Notes under the pieces: model-generated
The model's input: the letters and a program-made list of their open reading frames with translations, nothing else
Told to the model about the DNA's origin: nothing
The model's database searches: none
Program-made: the position numbers and the translations under genes
Assembly (NCBI GenBank): GCA_009829735.1
Contig: CM020620.1
Span: forward strand, 24,340,020-24,404,019
DNA length: 64,000 nt
Direction: 5' to 3'
Source: Pyropia yezoensis
Lineage: Eukaryota > Rhodophyta > Bangiophyceae > Bangiales > Bangiaceae
Shown: positions 34,684-61,379 of the stretch, one piece after another
Layout: every line of letters begins with the position of its first letter
Numbering within the stretch: position 1 is the stretch's first letter

Positions 34684-37600
34684 ATGGGGCGGCGGGGTGT
34701 CCCAGCCGTAGTCGCGACATCGTCGGGTGGGGCTCGGGACTACCATCTTCCCGGCGACGCTGACGTCCGCGCTTGGGCGGAGCTGCTCTCCCCTTTTGAG
34801 GGGAACCTGTATCTGGCGCCCAAATCGAGCTGCTTCAGCAAGGTCCAGAAGTCGTGGCGATGCGTGACCGGCCGCCCGCAGCTGACCTTCGTCAAGGTGT
34901 GGCTGCAATCCGGGCTCCACTACCGACGAGTGGCGGCTGGTGGGGCCAACACGGGCACGGCGTCTAGACACGGGGAAGCCCTGCCGTTGGGGGGCGCACG
35001 CGGCTTTGGGTTTTTCCCGCTGCTCCGGGACGAGCCCGACTGCACTCAACACTTTTCCGTGGAAGTGTGTCGCGCGCAGAAAACGTTTCGTGGCGGCACG
35101 GCTGGTGCCGACCCGTGGCTGGTGAAACTGGTTGCGCCGTCGTCGGACGTGGAGGATGTCACGTTTGTGGCCACCACGGAGATGGAAGCGAGGCGTTGGG
35201 AGCGGCAGCTGTTGATGCGCGCCGCGCCGCTCACAAAGGTATGGCGCGAGGTTCCCGCAGCGGCCGTGGGGGCTGGCCCTTCCTCGGCGGCTGCGTTTGC
35301 CGCTGGCACTTCTGCTCGCCGTGTTGGGGCTCTGGCTGGCGCCGTCGACAAGATTCTGTCCACAGGTGTCTCTACTACGGTGGTCGGGGTGGTCACCTCC
35401 ATCGCGGACAACGACTTGTTTGATTTGGCCACGTCCGTGGGCGGGCTGGCGGGCTTTGCGGTGGGCGTGCTGTGCACAGCTGTGCGCGTGTGCGTAGAGA
35501 TCCGCCAGCTACCACTCAAGGCGGAGAAGCTGCGGGACGACGTGGGGCGCCTTGCCGACGCGTTGCGAGCGGACCTGCTGCCCAAGGTGACGAAACTGGC
35601 CGACACACGGGCGGAGGGGGCGGAGGCGCTCCTGACCCAGGTGGGTCAGATGTCGGCTTCGTTGGACGCCCTTGTGGGCAAGCTTCTTCACGTCGCCCTC
35701 TCAGTCAAGGCGCGAACGCGCGAGCAGATCAAGTCGAACGACGGCGGCACCGACCCGTCTCTCGAGGCGGAGGTTGCCGCCCGTTTGCAAGACGTGAGAG
35801 ACCTGCAGCAAAATCTGATTGTGGTGGTGACGTGGGAGAACCAGCGGACGATAGGCAGAATTGACGACCGGTCGCTCGCCAAGGAGCAGGCGGATGCGCT
35901 TGCGCTGGTGGAGCGCAGCCACGAGCTGGTGGCAGTACCCCCCGTGCTTGACCGCGTCGTGGTCGACTGGGGCGATTCAGAGGCCCCGTGGTCCAAGTTG
36001 CGCGACGCGGTGCTGCGTGATCCGGGCGAGGCGGTTGCCGGGATGTGCGCGTGCATTGCCAGCACCAAGGGCATGGGGGGAGTAGGCAAGACAGTCATCT
36101 GCCAGCTGGTTGCCGCACAGGCGAAAGAGGAGGGCCGCCGGTACGCGGATGGTGTTTTCTGGGTCAAGCTGGGCCAGGGAGCGGGCGAGGCCGAGGCGAT
36201 GAAGGGTATGCTGGCGGTGGCGACCGTGGTGGCCCGGAAGGAGGTTGCAGCAGCGTCCGTCGCGGTGGCGGCGGACAAGCTGCGTGGGGTGCTGGCGAAC
36301 AAAGCATGCTTGATCGTGGTGGACGACTGTTGGGCCGCATGCCTGGCGGATCCTTTTGTGAGCGCCGTCGAAGGCGAGGCATGTCGCCTCTGCTGCCTGC
36401 TCATGTCCACCCGGTTGGACGGGGTTGCCAGCATGGCCTCCGATCAGTGCTGCGTGAAAGTCGGGCCGATGGCCGAGCACAGGGGGCGGGATGTGCTGCT
36501 GGAGCACTCCAAACCCCGGCCGGAACCGAAGTCGCAGGTGGACGAAGCGCATCTTGCCGTGCTTCTGAAAGCAGCTGCGGGTCTGCCCTTAGCGCTGGCT
36601 GTGCTGGGCTCGGTTGTTCGCACCAAGGGGTGGGGATGGGCGGCCGCCGAGGTGCACCAGTCGTTTGTTTCACAGCCCTGCCCACGCGGTGGTGAGCATT
36701 CGTCTCTGTGGGCCTGCTTTCAGGCCAGCTACAAGCACTTGGACGCCATTGGCATGGAGCCTGAGCACTGCCGGGAGCTGTACATGGCGTTGTGCGTGGT
36801 GGAGAAGCAGGAGTGGCTACCAATGTCGGCGCTGTCAGCACTTTGGGGCGTGGACGAAGACGTTGCCAAGGTTTACGCCAACCTGTTCGGCGACGTAGCG
36901 TTGGCAACAGTACGCCCACAGGTGCAGGCGGGAAAGGACTCGCTGGTGTTGGGCCTGCACGACTTGCTGGTGGACTGGATCCACTATGGGCTGGTGCTCA
37001 AGCAGAACAAGCGCCAGCACTTCTACAAAGAACTGGTGGAGGGGTACGCAGCCCGCCTGGGGCGCGGCGTGCCTCCGGCGGTTGGGGAGGTCTCGGACGG
37101 ACAGAGCCGCCCGTGGTGGGCACTGGACGACGAGTATGCCAAGCTCACCGTGTGCCGTCACCTGAACGCTGGTGGCGATGTCTTGCGGCTTGAAGCGGTG
37201 GCGCTCCTTTGTGACTGGCGGTGGATTGCGTGGCACGTGGGCCGGAGCGGTCTCTCAGCCGTGGACTACCGGACGGATTGCCGTCGGTCTCAGGTGGCAC
37301 TCTTGGAACGCATCGCAACGGTGGTGGACGGGGCTATTGCTGTGTCATCCACCCTGGGAGTCCCTGCGTTGCAGCAGGTCGCATTTGAGCTGGCGGAGCG
37401 CCTGAGAGCCGCCGCGCTCTCAGGTGACGCACTTGCCTGCCACATGCAACGTCTCGTGCGCGATGCCAGGCACTGCGTGGCGCGGCCCTCGGTTGAGTTG
37501 CTTGGAGATGGTGGACTGCCTATGCCACAAGAAGTGAGCACCTTCGGTTGTGGCGCGCACGAGCCACATTCTCTCATCACCCTGCGCGACGCCAGCGGAA

Positions 37601-40032
37601 GAGCGCTTGTTGTATCTGGCGGGGGTGATGGTTCGCTGCAGGTGTGGGACGTGGAGCGGGGGGCACGTGTTGCTGTCCTCGAGGGCCACACGGCCTGCGT
37701 CGTTTGCTTGTGTGTGGTTGACGTTGCATCTGGAGCGGCCGACGTTGCTGCGCGGTGTACGGTGCGGCGGGTTGTGTCGGGTTCGGTTGATGGTTCTCTA
37801 CGGGTGTGGGACGTCGAGGGCGAGAAGTGTGTGGCGCTTCTGGAAGGCCACACGGCCGCGGTCTTGTGCGCGTGTGTGGGCAAGGTGGCCAGCAGGACGG
37901 GTGTTGGCGCAGCGGGGGGGACGGTTCAGCGTCTGGTGTCTGGTTCGGCCAATGGTGCCCTGCGTGTGTGGGATGTGGAGCGGTGGGAGTGCGTGGCAGA
38001 GCTGACAGGCCACACGGAGCGTGTCGGGGTCGTGTGTTTTGCAGAGGTGCCCGTTGGGGCGGCCGAAAGTCGAGCGGGCGCGATGGCACAGCGGGTTGTG
38101 TCTGGCTCAAAGGACGGTACGTTGCGGGTGTGGGATGTGGAGGGCAAGAAGTGTGTGGCGACGCTGACAGGCCATACGGACGATGTTGCGTGCATGTGTG
38201 TGGTGGAGGTGCCCGATGGGGCGAGCAGTGGTGCGGCGGATAGGACGGTGCAGCGACTTGTGTCTGGGTCGGAGGATGCGACGCTGCGGGTGTGGGACTT
38301 GGAGCGGGCGGAGTGCATCTCCGTGCTCCAGGGCCATGGGTCGTGGGTTGATTGCGTGTGTGTCGTGAGAGTGGCGAATGGGACGGCCGGTGGTGGGGGC
38401 GGCGGGACGGTGCAGCGAGTCGTCTCAGGGTCGCTGGATCATACGCTGCGGGTGTGGGATGTGGAGCACGGAGCGTGCTTGGCCAAGCTGGACTGCGGAT
38501 TAGACTGTGCCTGGGCACTATGTGCCGTGCACTGTGGCGGTGGTGTCGATGACAGCGGGGGCGGGCGGACGGTGCAGCGGGTCGTGTGTGCAATGGATTC
38601 AGGGAACCTCCAGGTGTGGGACGTTGAACGCGAGGAGCGCGTCGCGGAGCTGCTGGGCCACACGGGCCTTGTTCGCTGCATGTGTGTTGTGGAAGCCACC
38701 GGCTGGGTGGGTGGTGTCAGTGGCGACGGGACGGTGCGGCGCGTGGTGTCTGGGTCGGATGACCACACGCTGCGGGTGTGGGATGTGGACCAGGGGGAGT
38801 GCGTTGCCGGACCGCGAGCCCACACCGCTTATATCTCGGACTGCCGCGCGGTGGAGGTTTCTGTTGAGGCGAGCGATGGCGCGGCGGTGAGGACGGTGCG
38901 CCGTGTCGTGTCCGGGTCGCATGACAAAACGCTGCGGGTGTGGGACGTCGAGAGCGGAACGTGCGTGGCGGTCCTAAAAGGCCACACGGACAGAGTTTTA
39001 CCCCTCTGTGCCGTGGAAGTGGCCGCTGCGACTGTTGGAGTTGGTCGCCAGGCCTCGGTGCAGCGCGTCGTGTCTGGGTCGGCAGACAACACGCTGCGTG
39101 TGTGGGATGCAGATCGGGAAGAGTGTATCGCGATACTGGAGGGCCACACGGCCACTATCTGTTGCGTGTGCGTGGTGGGGGTTTCCGTTGAAGCGGTAGA
39201 TGGTGCGGCGGTAAGGACGGTGCAGCGGGTTGTGTCTGGGTCAGCAGACGGGACGCTGCGGGTGTGGGATGTAGTTCAAAGGAAGCGTATCGCGGTGTTG
39301 GAGGGCCACACGAGCGCCATTTCTTGTGTGCGTGTGGTGGAGGTTTCCGTGGAGGCGGGCGATGGTGCGGCGGTGCGGACGGTGCAGCGCGTCGTGTCTG
39401 GGTCGGAGGACAAGACGCTGCGGGTGTGGGACGTCGAGAGCGGAACGTGCGTGGCGGTCCTGAGAGGCCACACGGGCCGTGTCTCGGACATGTGTGCTGT
39501 GGACGTGGCCGCCGCCGCTGATGGGGGTGGTGGCCCTCGGACGCGACGCTTGGTGGTGTCTTGGTCGGACCTGTACCGGGAGGATGCTGCGGTTATGGTG
39601 TGGGATGTAGAGAGCGGGGAATGCGTCACTGTCCTCAAGGAATTCCCGCGCTCGGTCAGGTGCATGTGTGTGGTGGAGGTCGCCGATGGGTCGGGTGGTC
39701 GAGGGGGTGGCGAGGTGGTCCAGCGGTTGGTGGCTGGGTTGATGAACCGCACGCTCCAGGGGTTGGACATCTCTGCAGACGGATCTGTTCTGCCTGCCTT
39801 CACACTCAAACTTCCTGGCTGGCCCACCAAGCTGATCGCTGTTGCTGGGCACCCGTCTCTTTTGCTTGCCGTGTGCTTCGGGGGTGCGACCGTGCTCGTG
39901 GATGCTGCCAACGGTCGCTTTTGGCCAATGGCGTGCCCCCCCGGAGTGGGTCGTGCTCTCTCCCCTGCCATGGACCGTCTGGTGCTTTGCACTGGCACTG
40001 GTTCCCTGCACGTTGCCCGGCTGCTGCTCTGA
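34684..40032 (+). CDS. NLR-like STAND NTPase: PH - helical - NB-ARC - 14 WD40 blades (1782 aa)
   Basis: Single exon. Domains in order: a probable PH domain (about residues 35-178: FEGNLYLAPKSSCFSKV, KSWRCVTG, closing helix EARRWERQLL). Next is a mostly helical region (about 190-420) with a hydrophobic stretch (LAGFAVGVLCTAVRV) and long amphipathic helices, reminiscent of HeLo/RPW8-type four-helix domains (inference). The NB-ARC has P-loop GMGGVGKT (463-470), Walker B CLIVVDDCW (542-550), sensor LLMSTR (572-577), GLPLAL (633-638) and an MHD-like LHDLLVDW (758-765). Residues about 955-1782 form fourteen WD40 blades (LRVWDVE...CVAVLEGHT). This is the APAF1/fungal-NWD layout: ligand sensing by the propellers, nucleotide exchange by NB-ARC, signalling by the N-terminus. 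The start is the first ATG of the frame, just upstream of the PH domain. It probably acts in innate immunity or non-self recognition, inferred from architecture. All key NTPase motifs are intact. Confidence 0.9.
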   Translation: MGRRGVPAVVATSSGGARDYHLPGDADVRAWAELLSPFEGNLYLAPKSSCFSKVQKSWRCVTGRPQLTFVKVWLQSGLHYRRVAAGGANTGTASRHGEALPLGGARGFGFFPLLRDEPDCTQHFSVEVCRAQKTFRGGTAGADPWLVKLVAPSSDVEDVTFVATTEMEARRWERQLLMRAAPLTKVWREVPAAAVGAGPSSAAAFAAGTSARRVGALAGAVDKILSTGVSTTVVGVVTSIADNDLFDLATSVGGLAGFAVGVLCTAVRVCVEIRQLPLKAEKLRDDVGRLADALRADLLPKVTKLADTRAEGAEALLTQVGQMSASLDALVGKLLHVALSVKARTREQIKSNDGGTDPSLEAEVAARLQDVRDLQQNLIVVVTWENQRTIGRIDDRSLAKEQADALALVERSHELVAVPPVLDRVVVDWGDSEAPWSKLRDAVLRDPGEAVAGMCACIASTKGMGGVGKTVICQLVAAQAKEEGRRYADGVFWVKLGQGAGEAEAMKGMLAVATVVARKEVAAASVAVAADKLRGVLANKACLIVVDDCWAACLADPFVSAVEGEACRLCCLLMSTRLDGVASMASDQCCVKVGPMAEHRGRDVLLEHSKPRPEPKSQVDEAHLAVLLKAAAGLPLALAVLGSVVRTKGWGWAAAEVHQSFVSQPCPRGGEHSSLWACFQASYKHLDAIGMEPEHCRELYMALCVVEKQEWLPMSALSALWGVDEDVAKVYANLFGDVALATVRPQVQAGKDSLVLGLHDLLVDWIHYGLVLKQNKRQHFYKELVEGYAARLGRGVPPAVGEVSDGQSRPWWALDDEYAKLTVCRHLNAGGDVLRLEAVALLCDWRWIAWHVGRSGLSAVDYRTDCRRSQVALLERIATVVDGAIAVSSTLGVPALQQVAFELAERLRAAALSGDALACHMQRLVRDARHCVARPSVELLGDGGLPMPQEVSTFGCGAHEPHSLITLRDASGRALVVSGGGDGSLQVWDVERGARVAVLEGHTACVVCLCVVDVASGAADVAARCTVRRVVSGSVDGSLRVWDVEGEKCVALLEGHTAAVLCACVGKVASRTGVGAAGGTVQRLVSGSANGALRVWDVERWECVAELTGHTERVGVVCFAEVPVGAAESRAGAMAQRVVSGSKDGTLRVWDVEGKKCVATLTGHTDDVACMCVVEVPDGASSGAADRTVQRLVSGSEDATLRVWDLERAECISVLQGHGSWVDCVCVVRVANGTAGGGGGGTVQRVVSGSLDHTLRVWDVEHGACLAKLDCGLDCAWALCAVHCGGGVDDSGGGRTVQRVVCAMDSGNLQVWDVEREERVAELLGHTGLVRCMCVVEATGWVGGVSGDGTVRRVVSGSDDHTLRVWDVDQGECVAGPRAHTAYISDCRAVEVSVEASDGAAVRTVRRVVSGSHDKTLRVWDVESGTCVAVLKGHTDRVLPLCAVEVAAATVGVGRQASVQRVVSGSADNTLRVWDADREECIAILEGHTATICCVCVVGVSVEAVDGAAVRTVQRVVSGSADGTLRVWDVVQRKRIAVLEGHTSAISCVRVVEVSVEAGDGAAVRTVQRVVSGSEDKTLRVWDVESGTCVAVLRGHTGRVSDMCAVDVAAAADGGGGPRTRRLVVSWSDLYREDAAVMVWDVESGECVTVLKEFPRSVRCMCVVEVADGSGGRGGGEVVQRLVAGLMNRTLQGLDISADGSVLPAFTLKLPGWPTKLIAVAGHPSLLLAVCFGGATVLVDAANGRFWPMACPPGVGRALSPAMDRLVLCTGTGSLHVARLLL
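37570..39800 (+). repeat. 162-bp coding repeat array (14 WD40 units)
   Basis: The word GTGTGGGA (or its equivalent) occurs at 37642, 37804, 37966, 38128, 38290, 38452, 38614, 38776, 38938, 39100, 39262, 39424 and 39598. A degenerate unit lies at 39760. Eleven consecutive intervals are exactly 162 bp; one is 174. Each unit encodes 54 residues, longer than an ordinary WD40 repeat because of a V/A/D-rich loop. Confidence 0.95.
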
Positions 40033-58183: not shown

Positions 58184-59762
58184 ATGTCGGACCCCCAGGT
58201 ACCCGGGGGCGAGGACGACCTCCTGCCTGAGGAGGGGGAAGAGGTGATGGTGGACGACATTCCCGTCTCCGCCACCGCCGCCGAGTGCTTCCTAGCGAGC
58301 TCGTCGGAGGACGAGGACGACCGGGTGACCGTTCGTGTGGCTCCGGAAGGCGCGCCGGGCGGGTTGTCGTCCGTGTGTAGCGGCACGACGGCTCCGTCGG
58401 GTGGCGGGCAACCGCGTGTAGCGGTGGCTTCTACCGCTTCTCCTCCGGCGGCCCGGATGGCTTCTGTCGCCGGTGCCGGCGTGGCTCTACCTCAAGATGG
58501 TGTCGCCGGCGTGGCGGATGGTGGTGGTGGCACCCTGTCCAGTCCGGCGGGTCAAGACGGCGCGGGTGCCCGCCCGGTTGGTGTGTCCGCTGCGGCGGGT
58601 AGCGGGTCTACCCGTGCTGCCCCCGTGGTACCCACGTCGGGTCCGGGTGGCGGCGATGCTCTGCCCGCGGTGCCGCGGGCGTCTGGTGGTCAAGGTGGGT
58701 CTACACCGATGGCAGTGGACTCCGGGAGTTACTCCGGGCGGGCGCCCGCCCTTCTTCTTCCTCCTCGGCCGCGTGCGACTCCGGCGCCGGCCCCTCTGCC
58801 GATGGGGCATCCCCCGGCGCCCCCTATTCTTCCTGGTCCTGCCCGGGTTGCCCCGTTGGGTGGCGGCGTCGCCGTGGCGGCGGGTCAACCCGCCATGTCG
58901 ATGTTCGACTTGGTGGCTCGGGTTCGAGGCCTGACTGTGCAAGAGTCAATGGAGTCCGATGGGCGGATGCGGGTGGACTTCCACCTGCCCCATCCCCGTG
59001 GAGTGTCCTCCCGGCGCGTCAAGGTGGACCCGAGTTGGGAGCGGGAGTTGGTGCGGCTGGTCAACCAGCCGAACGCGGTGCGAGTGGAACACCATTGGAT
59101 CCTGAGTCAGCCGGACGACCGGCATGCGCAGCTCTGGCGCACTCGGGTGGGACGGGGTGAGGTCTACCTCGACCCCGCCTTCGGGGTATGCGACCTGATT
59201 GCTCCCGCGTTACCGCGGGAGGTTGACTACCCGGCTAGTGCACGGGGGATTGCGGCGGCGGCGGAGCCGGTTGCGTTTGGGGAGACGGTGGGCAGTACCG
59301 GTCGGTATCCCGACTTTGATTACTACCCGGGGGTATCCCCGTATCTGTCGTTGACGGCCCCCTACCCGCCTATGGCGGGGTTGAAGTCGGCGTCGAGCTG
59401 GCGACGTAACCATGGTGTCATGGCGGATGCGTTCCGCACGGATATAACGTGTGCGTTGCAGACCGGCAACGGTCGTGCGCCGGTATACACTCCCGTGCGC
59501 CCGCCTCTGTAGCAAGAGGGGTGGGAACCCGCCCCTGCTTTCCGGTTTGACACCGGCTCCTGTCTCCGACACTTCGGGAGTGTGTTGGCCTCCCGGCCGG
59601 TCCACCCGTTGCAGGGTACCTTCACCCTTGAGGTTACCCTCGGGCAGGCGTCCTCCTTCTTGCTGTCCGTCCGCCGGCAGGGGCGCCTGTTTCATCTTCA
59701 GACGGGTGTCCGTCGGCACTCGGGTTGGAGCCAACTTTGGCTTGGAGTCGTTGCCAACTAGG
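58184..59762 (+). pseudogene. Extra upstream ORF of retrotransposon copy C, interrupted by TAG
   Basis: The ATG at 58184 (CATCATGTCGGAC) starts an acidic Pro/Gly/Ala-rich protein (MSDPQVPGGEDDLLPEEGEE). A globular part begins near residue 245 (MSMFDLVARVRGLTVQESME, KVDPSWERELVRLVNQPNAV, ALQTGNGRAPVYTPVRPP). A TAG at 59510-59512 ends the frame. The related copy at 32.4 kb has TGG at the aligned position, and the downstream sequence here remains similar (QEGWEPAPAFRFDTG, ASRPVHPLQGTFTLEVTLGQ) up to the next stop at 59760-59762. So this is a nonsense mutation, or a codon that is read through. No known retrotransposon domain is recognised. Confidence 0.65.
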
Positions 59763-59810
59763 CTTTCGGAGGACGGTGGACCTCCGTTGGTCGGCGATGG
59801 GCTCGCGCCC

Positions 59811-61379
59811 ATGCCCCCGGTTGAGACCCCTGAGGAACGTGGTTACCCCTCAGGTGGACTCCCGGAGGCGGACCGAGACTCAACTGGAGTCGTCAATCCA
59901 CTCCTCGCGGAAACTGTCCGTCGGGAGGCGACCAATGTGTTGCGGCAGACTTTGCCGGACCTGGTGGTCACGATTACGAATACTATTCTGAATCAGATTG
60001 TGGCGAGTTTGCCAGATGGCCTTAATGTCCAGACCGGATTGGGGCTTTCGAGCCCGCAGGCGCAGGGAGAATCCCCCCTTACGCCTATCTCTGGTCGCCC
60101 CGAACTGGGGGCGACACCTGTGACTCCCAACGAGGGAGCCACACCATACTCGGTGGGGCGTACGCCCTTCACGGGGGAGTTCCCCCCGGAAACGCCGGCG
60201 GCTACACCAAGCGCGCCGCGCCGGACTACAGGCACTGAGAGTGAACTTACCCTAGTGCCACAGCGGCTGTTCCCTCAACGTGAGGTGCCGCCCAAGATCC
60301 AGGTAGCCAACCCGGTCTACCAGAGGATCTTTGACTGTGAGACCTACGCCCTCCACAACAAGTCGGTGGCGTATGGTCCTGACCAGGCCCGAGCCATGGG
60401 CCGTGCCAAGAAGAATGCACTTCACTCTTTTGGGCACAAAGCGGAGTGGGATGGAACTCCCCCCCTCCGTGTCTTTGAGTTCCTACGTCGTTTCACAAAA
60501 GCCTGTGACGACAATGCCATAAGTGAAGGCATGGCTTTTTACATGCTACAGGAGTTTACGAAGGGAGACCTGCGGACAGAACTTATGTCCGTCATGCCCA
60601 GCTCCTCAAGTGGAGGCGCTGGGGAGGTGACGTCCTATTTGGAGCTCGTCAACTGGTTGTTGAGAGCCATGGTTGATGAGGCAGCGTTGGCTTCTCAAGT
60701 CGAGGAGTTTACGCAAGCCCATCAGGAAGAGGCGGAGGACGAGTTGTCCTTTGCGGAGCGAGTCCGTAAGCTCAACAATCTTTGTGGGTTTCTTCATCCA
60801 CAAGCTGTGGTGAAGAGTCGATTTGTGGAGGGACTCCATTGGTCAGTCCGGATGGAGACCCGGGAGCATAACACTGCCCGGGCGACCCTGGCCGAGTTGG
60901 CCAGGTTCGCCTATCGCAGAGGCGAGGCCTACCGCAAGTTGCGGGAGGAACAACGCCAGGAGCGTCAGGCCGAGTTGGCCAAGGAACGGGAGGAGGCGCG
61001 CCAGGCCAGAGAGTTGAGAGAGGCACGCCGAATCCGCAAGGAGAGGGTGGTAGCTGCCGTGGGAACTTCCCAGGGTATCCCTTCGTCTTCCCCAGTTGGG
61101 AAGACCCCTCCCGGAACGGACCATCGGTGTTGGAACTGCAACTCCGATGGTCACTGGGCATATGATTGCCCCAAGTTGAGTAAACGCATCCAACAATTTG
61201 TTAGGAATGCGAGTAAAAAGTCGGCTACGAACGAAGTACGTTCACGCCGCGAGGGTGGGTCTCGACCGGTCGTTGCGGTCGCCACACCCTCGGCGGAGGA
61301 GGCGGACACGTCGTCCTCGGACTCGTCGTCTTCCTCCCCGCCCTCAGATTCGGACGCCAAGTCGGCGGGAAACGAATGA
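59811..61379 (+). CDS. gag: Gag polyprotein of retrotransposon copy C (522 aa)
   Basis: The ATG at 59811 is the first plausible start after the upstream ORF. The N-terminal ~150 residues are Pro/Thr-rich. The gag core follows (PPLRVFEFLRRFTKACDDNA, ELVNWLLRAMVDEAALASQV, ELSFAERVRKLNNLCGFLHP), then a charged helix (REEQRQERQAELAKEREEAR) and a canonical CCHC zinc knuckle (CWNCNSDGHWAYDC) for RNA packaging. It ends in a Ser/Asp-rich tail. The stop TGA overlaps the ATG of pol (ATGA at 61376-61379), so pol lies in the -1 frame and may be reached by reinitiation or frameshifting. No internal defects are seen. Confidence 0.9.
   Translation: MPPVETPEERGYPSGGLPEADRDSTGVVNPLLAETVRREATNVLRQTLPDLVVTITNTILNQIVASLPDGLNVQTGLGLSSPQAQGESPLTPISGRPELGATPVTPNEGATPYSVGRTPFTGEFPPETPAATPSAPRRTTGTESELTLVPQRLFPQREVPPKIQVANPVYQRIFDCETYALHNKSVAYGPDQARAMGRAKKNALHSFGHKAEWDGTPPLRVFEFLRRFTKACDDNAISEGMAFYMLQEFTKGDLRTELMSVMPSSSSGGAGEVTSYLELVNWLLRAMVDEAALASQVEEFTQAHQEEAEDELSFAERVRKLNNLCGFLHPQAVVKSRFVEGLHWSVRMETREHNTARATLAELARFAYRRGEAYRKLREEQRQERQAELAKEREEARQARELREARRIRKERVVAAVGTSQGIPSSSPVGKTPPGTDHRCWNCNSDGHWAYDCPKLSKRIQQFVRNASKKSATNEVRSRREGGSRPVVAVATPSAEEADTSSSDSSSSSPPSDSDAKSAGNE

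Follow-up and report, generated by a model that had tools for sequence, protein, structure and literature searches.

A gene of Pyropia yezoensis with a predicted PH fold, a helical module, NB-ARC and WD40 repeats, and its family of NLR-like paralogues

We analyzed a 64,000-nucleotide stretch of the genome of the red alga Pyropia yezoensis (GenBank assembly GCA_009829735.1, contig CM020620.1, positions 24,340,020 to 24,404,019 of the forward strand), hereafter the window, and in particular one gene in it, which encodes a protein like those of the nucleotide-binding leucine-rich repeat (NLR) type of signal transduction ATPases with numerous domains (STAND). This window gene is a single open reading frame (ORF) at 34684..40032 on the plus strand, as are all of its features given below; it starts with ATG, encodes 1782 amino acids and has no internal stop, and an in-frame stop lies 18 codons 5' of the ATG. 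Over the same interval, stops number 37 and 26 in the two other forward frames and 19 in the single reverse frame examined. The guanine-plus-cytosine content by codon position is uneven throughout the frame (0.69-0.74, 0.45-0.55 and 0.67-0.80 in six bins), which is coding-like; in the 300-base flanks it hardly differs between positions. The unbroken frame, known from genomic DNA alone, is compatible with the intronless gene proposed in an earlier note on this DNA. In protein searches, the product of the gene was matched only as P0001, whose last C-terminal residues resemble sequencing adapter read-through, so that this end is probably not biological.

The genome is algal, as the earlier note had assumed: light-harvesting genes are present, and one paralogue of the window gene (L009) shows 100% identity, over the region searched, to hypothetical protein I4F81_005506 of Pyropia yezoensis. 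One of the light-harvesting proteins is nearest to chain 7y5e_72 (E = 8.6e-68), from the red alga Porphyridium. The RuBisCO large subunit was looked for in the assembly and not found, a gap that we read as a missing plastid contig. A bacterial or phage origin of the STAND protein was rejected, given that no NCBIfam or PADLOC match was obtained at E 0.01 and that the genome carries light-harvesting genes.

An NB-ARC ATPase domain occupies residues 460-666 (36061..36681; Pfam E = 5.7e-19). It contains the P-loop GMGGVGKT (residues 463-470; 36070-36093), the Walker B motif CLIVVDDCW (542-550; 36307-36333), the sensor R motif (36397-36414) with MSTR at 574-577, and GLPLAL (633-638; 36580-36597). 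These motifs, followed by LHDL at 758-761, stand in the correct order and at the places previously reported. LHDL falls in a putative APAF-1-like winged-helix domain (36769..36981). The Pfam profile APAF-1-like_WHD, searched over residues 640-975 of the window protein, gave 13.5 bits (E = 0.085), as against 26.8 bits (5.9e-06) in L009 and 23.3 bits (7.6e-05) in another paralogue, L014, all below the curated cut-off of 27 bits; APAF1_C was sought in the same residues of the window protein without a match. By sequence, the nearest solved NB-ARC chains are those of MLA13 and RPP13-like protein 4, the latter of which we take to be ZAR1, and their E-values of 0.011-0.015 are too weak to place the window NB-ARC.

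The C-terminal part is a WD40 region at 37534..40029 (Pfam WD40 E = 4.7e-55). By eye, we counted the same fourteen recognizable blades as before: one at residues 951-990, eleven at exact 54-amino-acid spacing at residues 991-1584 (37654-39435) and two more to residue 1696, after which a weak C-terminal stretch covers residues 1697-1782. Tandem Repeats Finder detected a 162-bp period at 38729-39474. The protein thus shows the succession by which NLR/STAND proteins are recognized, namely an NB-ARC ATPase with P-loop, Walker B and sensor, then a C-terminal repeat sensor. The feature is real, and its layout is a variant of the NLR/STAND kind.

The region upstream of NB-ARC had been proposed to contain a PH domain at residues 35-178, closed by a helix including ARRWERQLL. 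Structure prediction with AlphaFold2 (AF2) agrees with this proposal, with a PH fold at residues ~35-182 within a domain that we delimit at ~31-185 (34774..35238). The model has the seven-stranded barrel and C-terminal capping helix of the PH superfamily; the helix, at residues 166-180, contains ARRWERQLL (169-177) and follows the seven strands. The N-terminal model matched PH structures with a Foldseek probability of 1.00. Pfam found nothing, PH included, in residues 1-411 even at E 10, and sequence searches of the Protein Data Bank with the N-terminus gave chance-level matches only. The view that the PH call was wishful reading was dropped given the model and the structure comparison, although Pfam was silent. 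A PH fold at the N-terminus is therefore supported at the level of prediction. The beta1-beta2 loop of this domain contains six K/R and no D/E in the window protein, which carries no strict phosphoinositide-binding motif. Of 14 sequences considered, one (L016) was left out of the charge count because its N-terminus fails to align; the loop is net positive in 13/13 of the rest, in L023 by just +1.

Between the PH fold and NB-ARC lies a predicted helical module (residues ~202-416; 35287..35931) with a four-helix core at ~254-390 and a hydrophobic stretch at 255-273, as judged from fold matches, hydropathy and two AF2 models built on family sets that overlap. We considered an executioner module of the HeLo, MLKL, RPW8 or coiled-coil (CC) type, which would be expected at this position; a four-helix core is indeed predicted, yet the fold matches listed are to other bundle types, namely IncA, mitofusin, BAR domains, designed bundles and other helical proteins. 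A match to PF17100 (NACHT_N) at E 0.31 in one of 11 family members is at chance level. A transmembrane helix at 255-273 was considered and rejected: the 19-residue hydropathy maximum over residues 1-460 reaches 1.77-2.31 in 25/25 proteins, but the helix in which it falls varies, and other parts of the proteins have peaks of similar height.

Peptides and small GTPases are frequent ligands of PH- and PTB-like folds. Both N-terminal parts could accordingly be protein-interaction adaptors of a soluble, apoptosome-like receptor that recruits a downstream enzyme away from the membrane. The PTB domain of CCM2 and the Rac2-bound split PH domain of PLCgamma2 are among the structural matches of the PH part, and the missing canonical lipid motif and the sub-threshold APAF-1-like winged helix fit such a receptor as well. 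However, the consistently basic beta1-beta2 loop argues against it, as does, less specifically, the hydrophobic stretch in the adjoining helical module. We regard this alternative as rather unlikely.

NB-ARC occurs at 32 places in the genome, for 21 of which the sequence was read (the window gene, 16 and 4 more; the other 11 unread). The window N-terminus is matched at E <= 0.01 by 18 of the 32, two of them (L016 and L024) from residue 109 or 139 onward only, and 13 of these 18 encode the N-terminus and NB-ARC in a single open frame. The same PH/helical-NB-ARC-WD40 fusion therefore recurs in several paralogues beyond chance. In a tree of the N-terminal 960 residues, the window gene groups with P0002/P0004, L014, L015 and P0005 (support 1.000), and the other sampled members, including genes with 47-residue units, fall outside this clade. 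A search with the N-terminus of L009, in which 7,999 candidates were scored, returned 11 proteins; two are named P. yezoensis and one Porphyra umbilicalis. No PH-bundle module was seen outside Bangiales among the candidates sharing most words, which alone were scored, and the 21 NB-ARC places read.

Some members deviate from this pattern. L012 (C2:23629764-23631710) has a frame that is broken in the assembly, whereas P0002, which is 100%, 91% and 99% identical to it in three pieces, is open over the same stretch; an intact copy may therefore exist, and the break may be an assembly error or a real polymorphism. In L030 (3-2501, minus strand), NB-ARC is preceded by a diverged version of the PH/helical N-terminus, and L032 (352-3099, plus strand) has a long low-complexity lead, NB-ARC and, by eye, possibly a PH-like stretch.

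We also calculated the ratio of nonsynonymous to synonymous substitution rates (dN/dS) between the window gene and its nearest paralogue, the broken copy L017. The value was lowest in NB-ARC (0.30), followed by the helical module (0.53), the winged helix with linker (0.59), the WD region (0.65) and the PH part (1.01), with 0.62 overall; part of this pattern is relaxed selection on the decayed L017. The highest ratio is that of the WD region in L009/L010 (0.77, with PH at 0.38) and in L010/L013 (0.70), but in L009/L013 the winged-helix stretch, at 1.05, exceeds WD, at 0.61.

Next, we analyzed the WD arrays of 17 loci (the window gene and L009-L024), of which 15 have at least three equally spaced units and two (L016, L024) do not. 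High internal conservation, defined as >85% identity over at least 100 residues, is reported to be uncommon in general and over-represented among fungal NLRs (PMC4986451). Five paralogues lie above the 85% unit identity that marks the fungal HNWD proteins (mean identity 0.92 in L009, 0.91 in L014, 0.89 in L021, 0.88 in L010 and L022). Three more lie at 0.82-0.84 (L012, L013, L015), and the other seven arrays at 0.39-0.60, with the window gene at 0.50, below this mark. At the DNA level, the nearest unit lies in the same gene for all or nearly all units of eight arrays (L009 9/10, L010 6/6, L011 8/8, L012 12/12, L014 11/11, L015 7/7, L021 12/12, L022 15/15) and for few in the others (window gene 2/11, L013 1/3, L017 0/7, L018 0/3, L019 2/6, L020 0/5, L023 0/5). 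By sequence, then, about half of the arrays (8/15) show within-gene unit pairing like that of fungal repeat homogenization. All three counted units of L018 have their nearest unit in L019 (mean identity 1.00); these loci lie on contigs C2 and C3, which suggests a recent copy between chromosomes, and L019 has an in-frame stop.

We then compared seven sites within the units, placed at GH+1, +2, +3 and +5, SGS+1 and +3, and WD+1 by reference to the HET-E repeat. They correspond to Podospora positions 10, 11, 12, 14, 30, 32 and 39 (PMC12222747); the test was not blind, because variable positions had been seen before these sites were taken from that paper. In 15/15 arrays, the seven sites are richer in amino-acid-changing differences than random seven-site sets usually are; between 0 and 361 of 20,000 random sets were as high (15 of 20,000 for the window gene). 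The proportion of nonsynonymous differences (pN) exceeds that of synonymous ones (pS) at these sites in 11 of the 15, the exceptions being the window gene, L011, L020 and L023, and pN is below pS at the remaining WD sites, pooled, in all 15. These per-array counts are not independent, because the units share descent.

Five paralogues with near-identical units varying at HET-E sites, and units homogenized within genes, would also suit a family that polices fusion or self/non-self, as HET-E and HET-D do in Podospora, rather than one for pathogen defence. However, the window gene lies outside the near-identical class, and NB-ARC+WD40 genes of this species are reported as induced by an oomycete (PMC6928737). 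Allorecognition as the main role thus seems improbable to us. A conserved STAND regulator of the ordinary kind, serving development or stress and playing no part in immunity, seems to us about as improbable. The few window units that pair within their own gene mark it as a stable member of the family, and most of its units pair with those of L017, so that the array predates that duplication; in addition, an Ulva APAF1_C/WD40 relative is described as having no mutant phenotype and an expression that tracks bacterial symbionts (PMC8891106). Against such a regulator, a large and partly decayed family, so far seen in Bangiales only and with fast WD evolution, bears the usual signature of recognition genes.

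The layout was compared with known systems. APAF-1/Dark and the algal NB-ARC-WH-APAF1_C-WD40 proteins (PMC8891106, which notes rhodophyte NB-ARC, WH and APAF1_C proteins and 13-15 WD repeats in Ulva) share NB-ARC, WD40 propellers and, sub-threshold in our case, the winged helix with the window protein. Unlike APAF-1, the window protein has PH and helical modules in place of a CARD, for which residues 1-411 gave no Pfam match at E 10, and no APAF1_C match in the residues searched. Plant CC-NLR resistosomes (ZAR1, MLA13) are its weak nearest neighbours by NB-ARC sequence and also have a helical bundle ahead of NB-ARC, a likeness of position; they carry leucine-rich repeats where the window protein has WD40, and it has a PH domain ahead of the bundle. 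The likeness to fungal NWD/HNWD proteins suggested earlier holds for the WD repeats but not for the NACHT and HET domains, in place of which the window protein has NB-ARC and PH/helical parts. With the fungal receptors HET-E, HET-D and HET-R (PMC4986451, PMC12222747), paralogues of the window gene share near-identical units, variation at the same sites of the blade and within-gene homogenization, whereas the units of the window gene itself are divergent.

The earlier note knew of no description of this combination. This stands for the N-terminus, but NB-ARC+WD40 proteins of P. yezoensis are already in print as putative resistance (R) proteins (PMC6928737), and these, like NBS+WD40 proteins of Porphyra umbilicalis, resemble the window gene in layout. 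They are very probably members of its family. The relevant passages of that paper describe single-R-domain proteins without fusion and contain neither a PH/helical N-terminus nor a repeat analysis; three of the seven listed NB-ARC+WD40 transcripts, none linked to the window gene, rose 1.5-2.2-fold at both stages of red-rot infection. Our literature search, which did not cover most subscription journals, found no report combining PH domain, NB-ARC, WD40 repeat and NLR, and none joining red algae, WD40 and internal conservation. The PH/helical N-terminus of this NLR-like family thus appears to be undescribed in the literature searched, and the passages covered on algal NB-ARC+WD40 proteins mention neither it nor the hypervariable repeats.

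We lean, somewhat beyond an even chance, towards the window gene belonging to a Bangiales family of STAND receptors of the NLR type that act at the membrane in defence or non-self recognition. This reading is favoured by the NB-ARC motifs and Pfam match, the predicted PH fold and its positive loop, the expansion of the family, the tightest selection on NB-ARC with weaker selection on WD against L017, the WD variation at HNWD sites, and the rise of NB-ARC+WD40 genes of the species in red-rot infection (PMC6928737). Two caveats apply to the PH fold: the match is at the fold level only, with a best E of 0.02, and the mean predicted local distance difference test score is 65 in the best AF2 model and 56-58 in the other four. 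From the predicted fold and by analogy, we infer that the PH domain may bind lipid and that the protein may have an immune role. By the same analogy, the ADP-bound protein would rest at a membrane bearing phosphoinositides or acidic lipids via its PH domain, a ligand bound to the WD propellers at their top face would open NB-ARC, and ADP/ATP exchange would lead to oligomerization of the kind known from APAF-1 or plant resistosomes. Once clustered, the helical bundles would exert their effect at the membrane, with permeabilization or the recruitment of a partner as the likeliest modes, and the outcome would be local defence or cell death against a parasite, or non-self recognition.

The genome also appears, from sequence, to hold a second STAND type headed by a trypsin-like protease. 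L031 (3-1616, minus strand) has a Trypsin_2 peptidase domain (E = 4.1e-08) ahead of NB-ARC, and L029 (1059-1985 and 3-1055, minus strand) has a Trypsin_2 match below the cut-off (3.2e-05) in the same position, its two parts being in separate frames. A Trypsin+NB-ARC+TPR gene is listed for P. yezoensis (PMC6928737). Of the 89 window ORFs of at least 200 amino acids, 10 neighbouring the gene were scanned with profiles at E 0.001, with one match: a zinc knuckle (zf-CCHC, 2.1e-05) in the ORF at 59451-61379 (plus strand), perhaps a retroelement fragment.

We tentatively propose, as a broader view that we hold to be possible rather than probable, that Bangiales have their own receptor system of PH-bundle-NB-ARC resistosomes tethered to the membrane, with WD propellers diversified by repeat homogenization and by selection at the ligand-face sites of HET-E/HET-D. 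The fungal solution to hypervariable recognition inside the cell would then have arisen a second time, in a seaweed, with a PH domain providing access to the membrane. If this is true, it would provide red algae, in which intracellular immunity has been little explored, with a concrete receptor family and a testable mechanism, and the PH domain would join the parts list of NLRs. Hypervariable WD40 recognition in the fungal style would also have an independent counterpart in a farmed seaweed affected by an oomycete disease.
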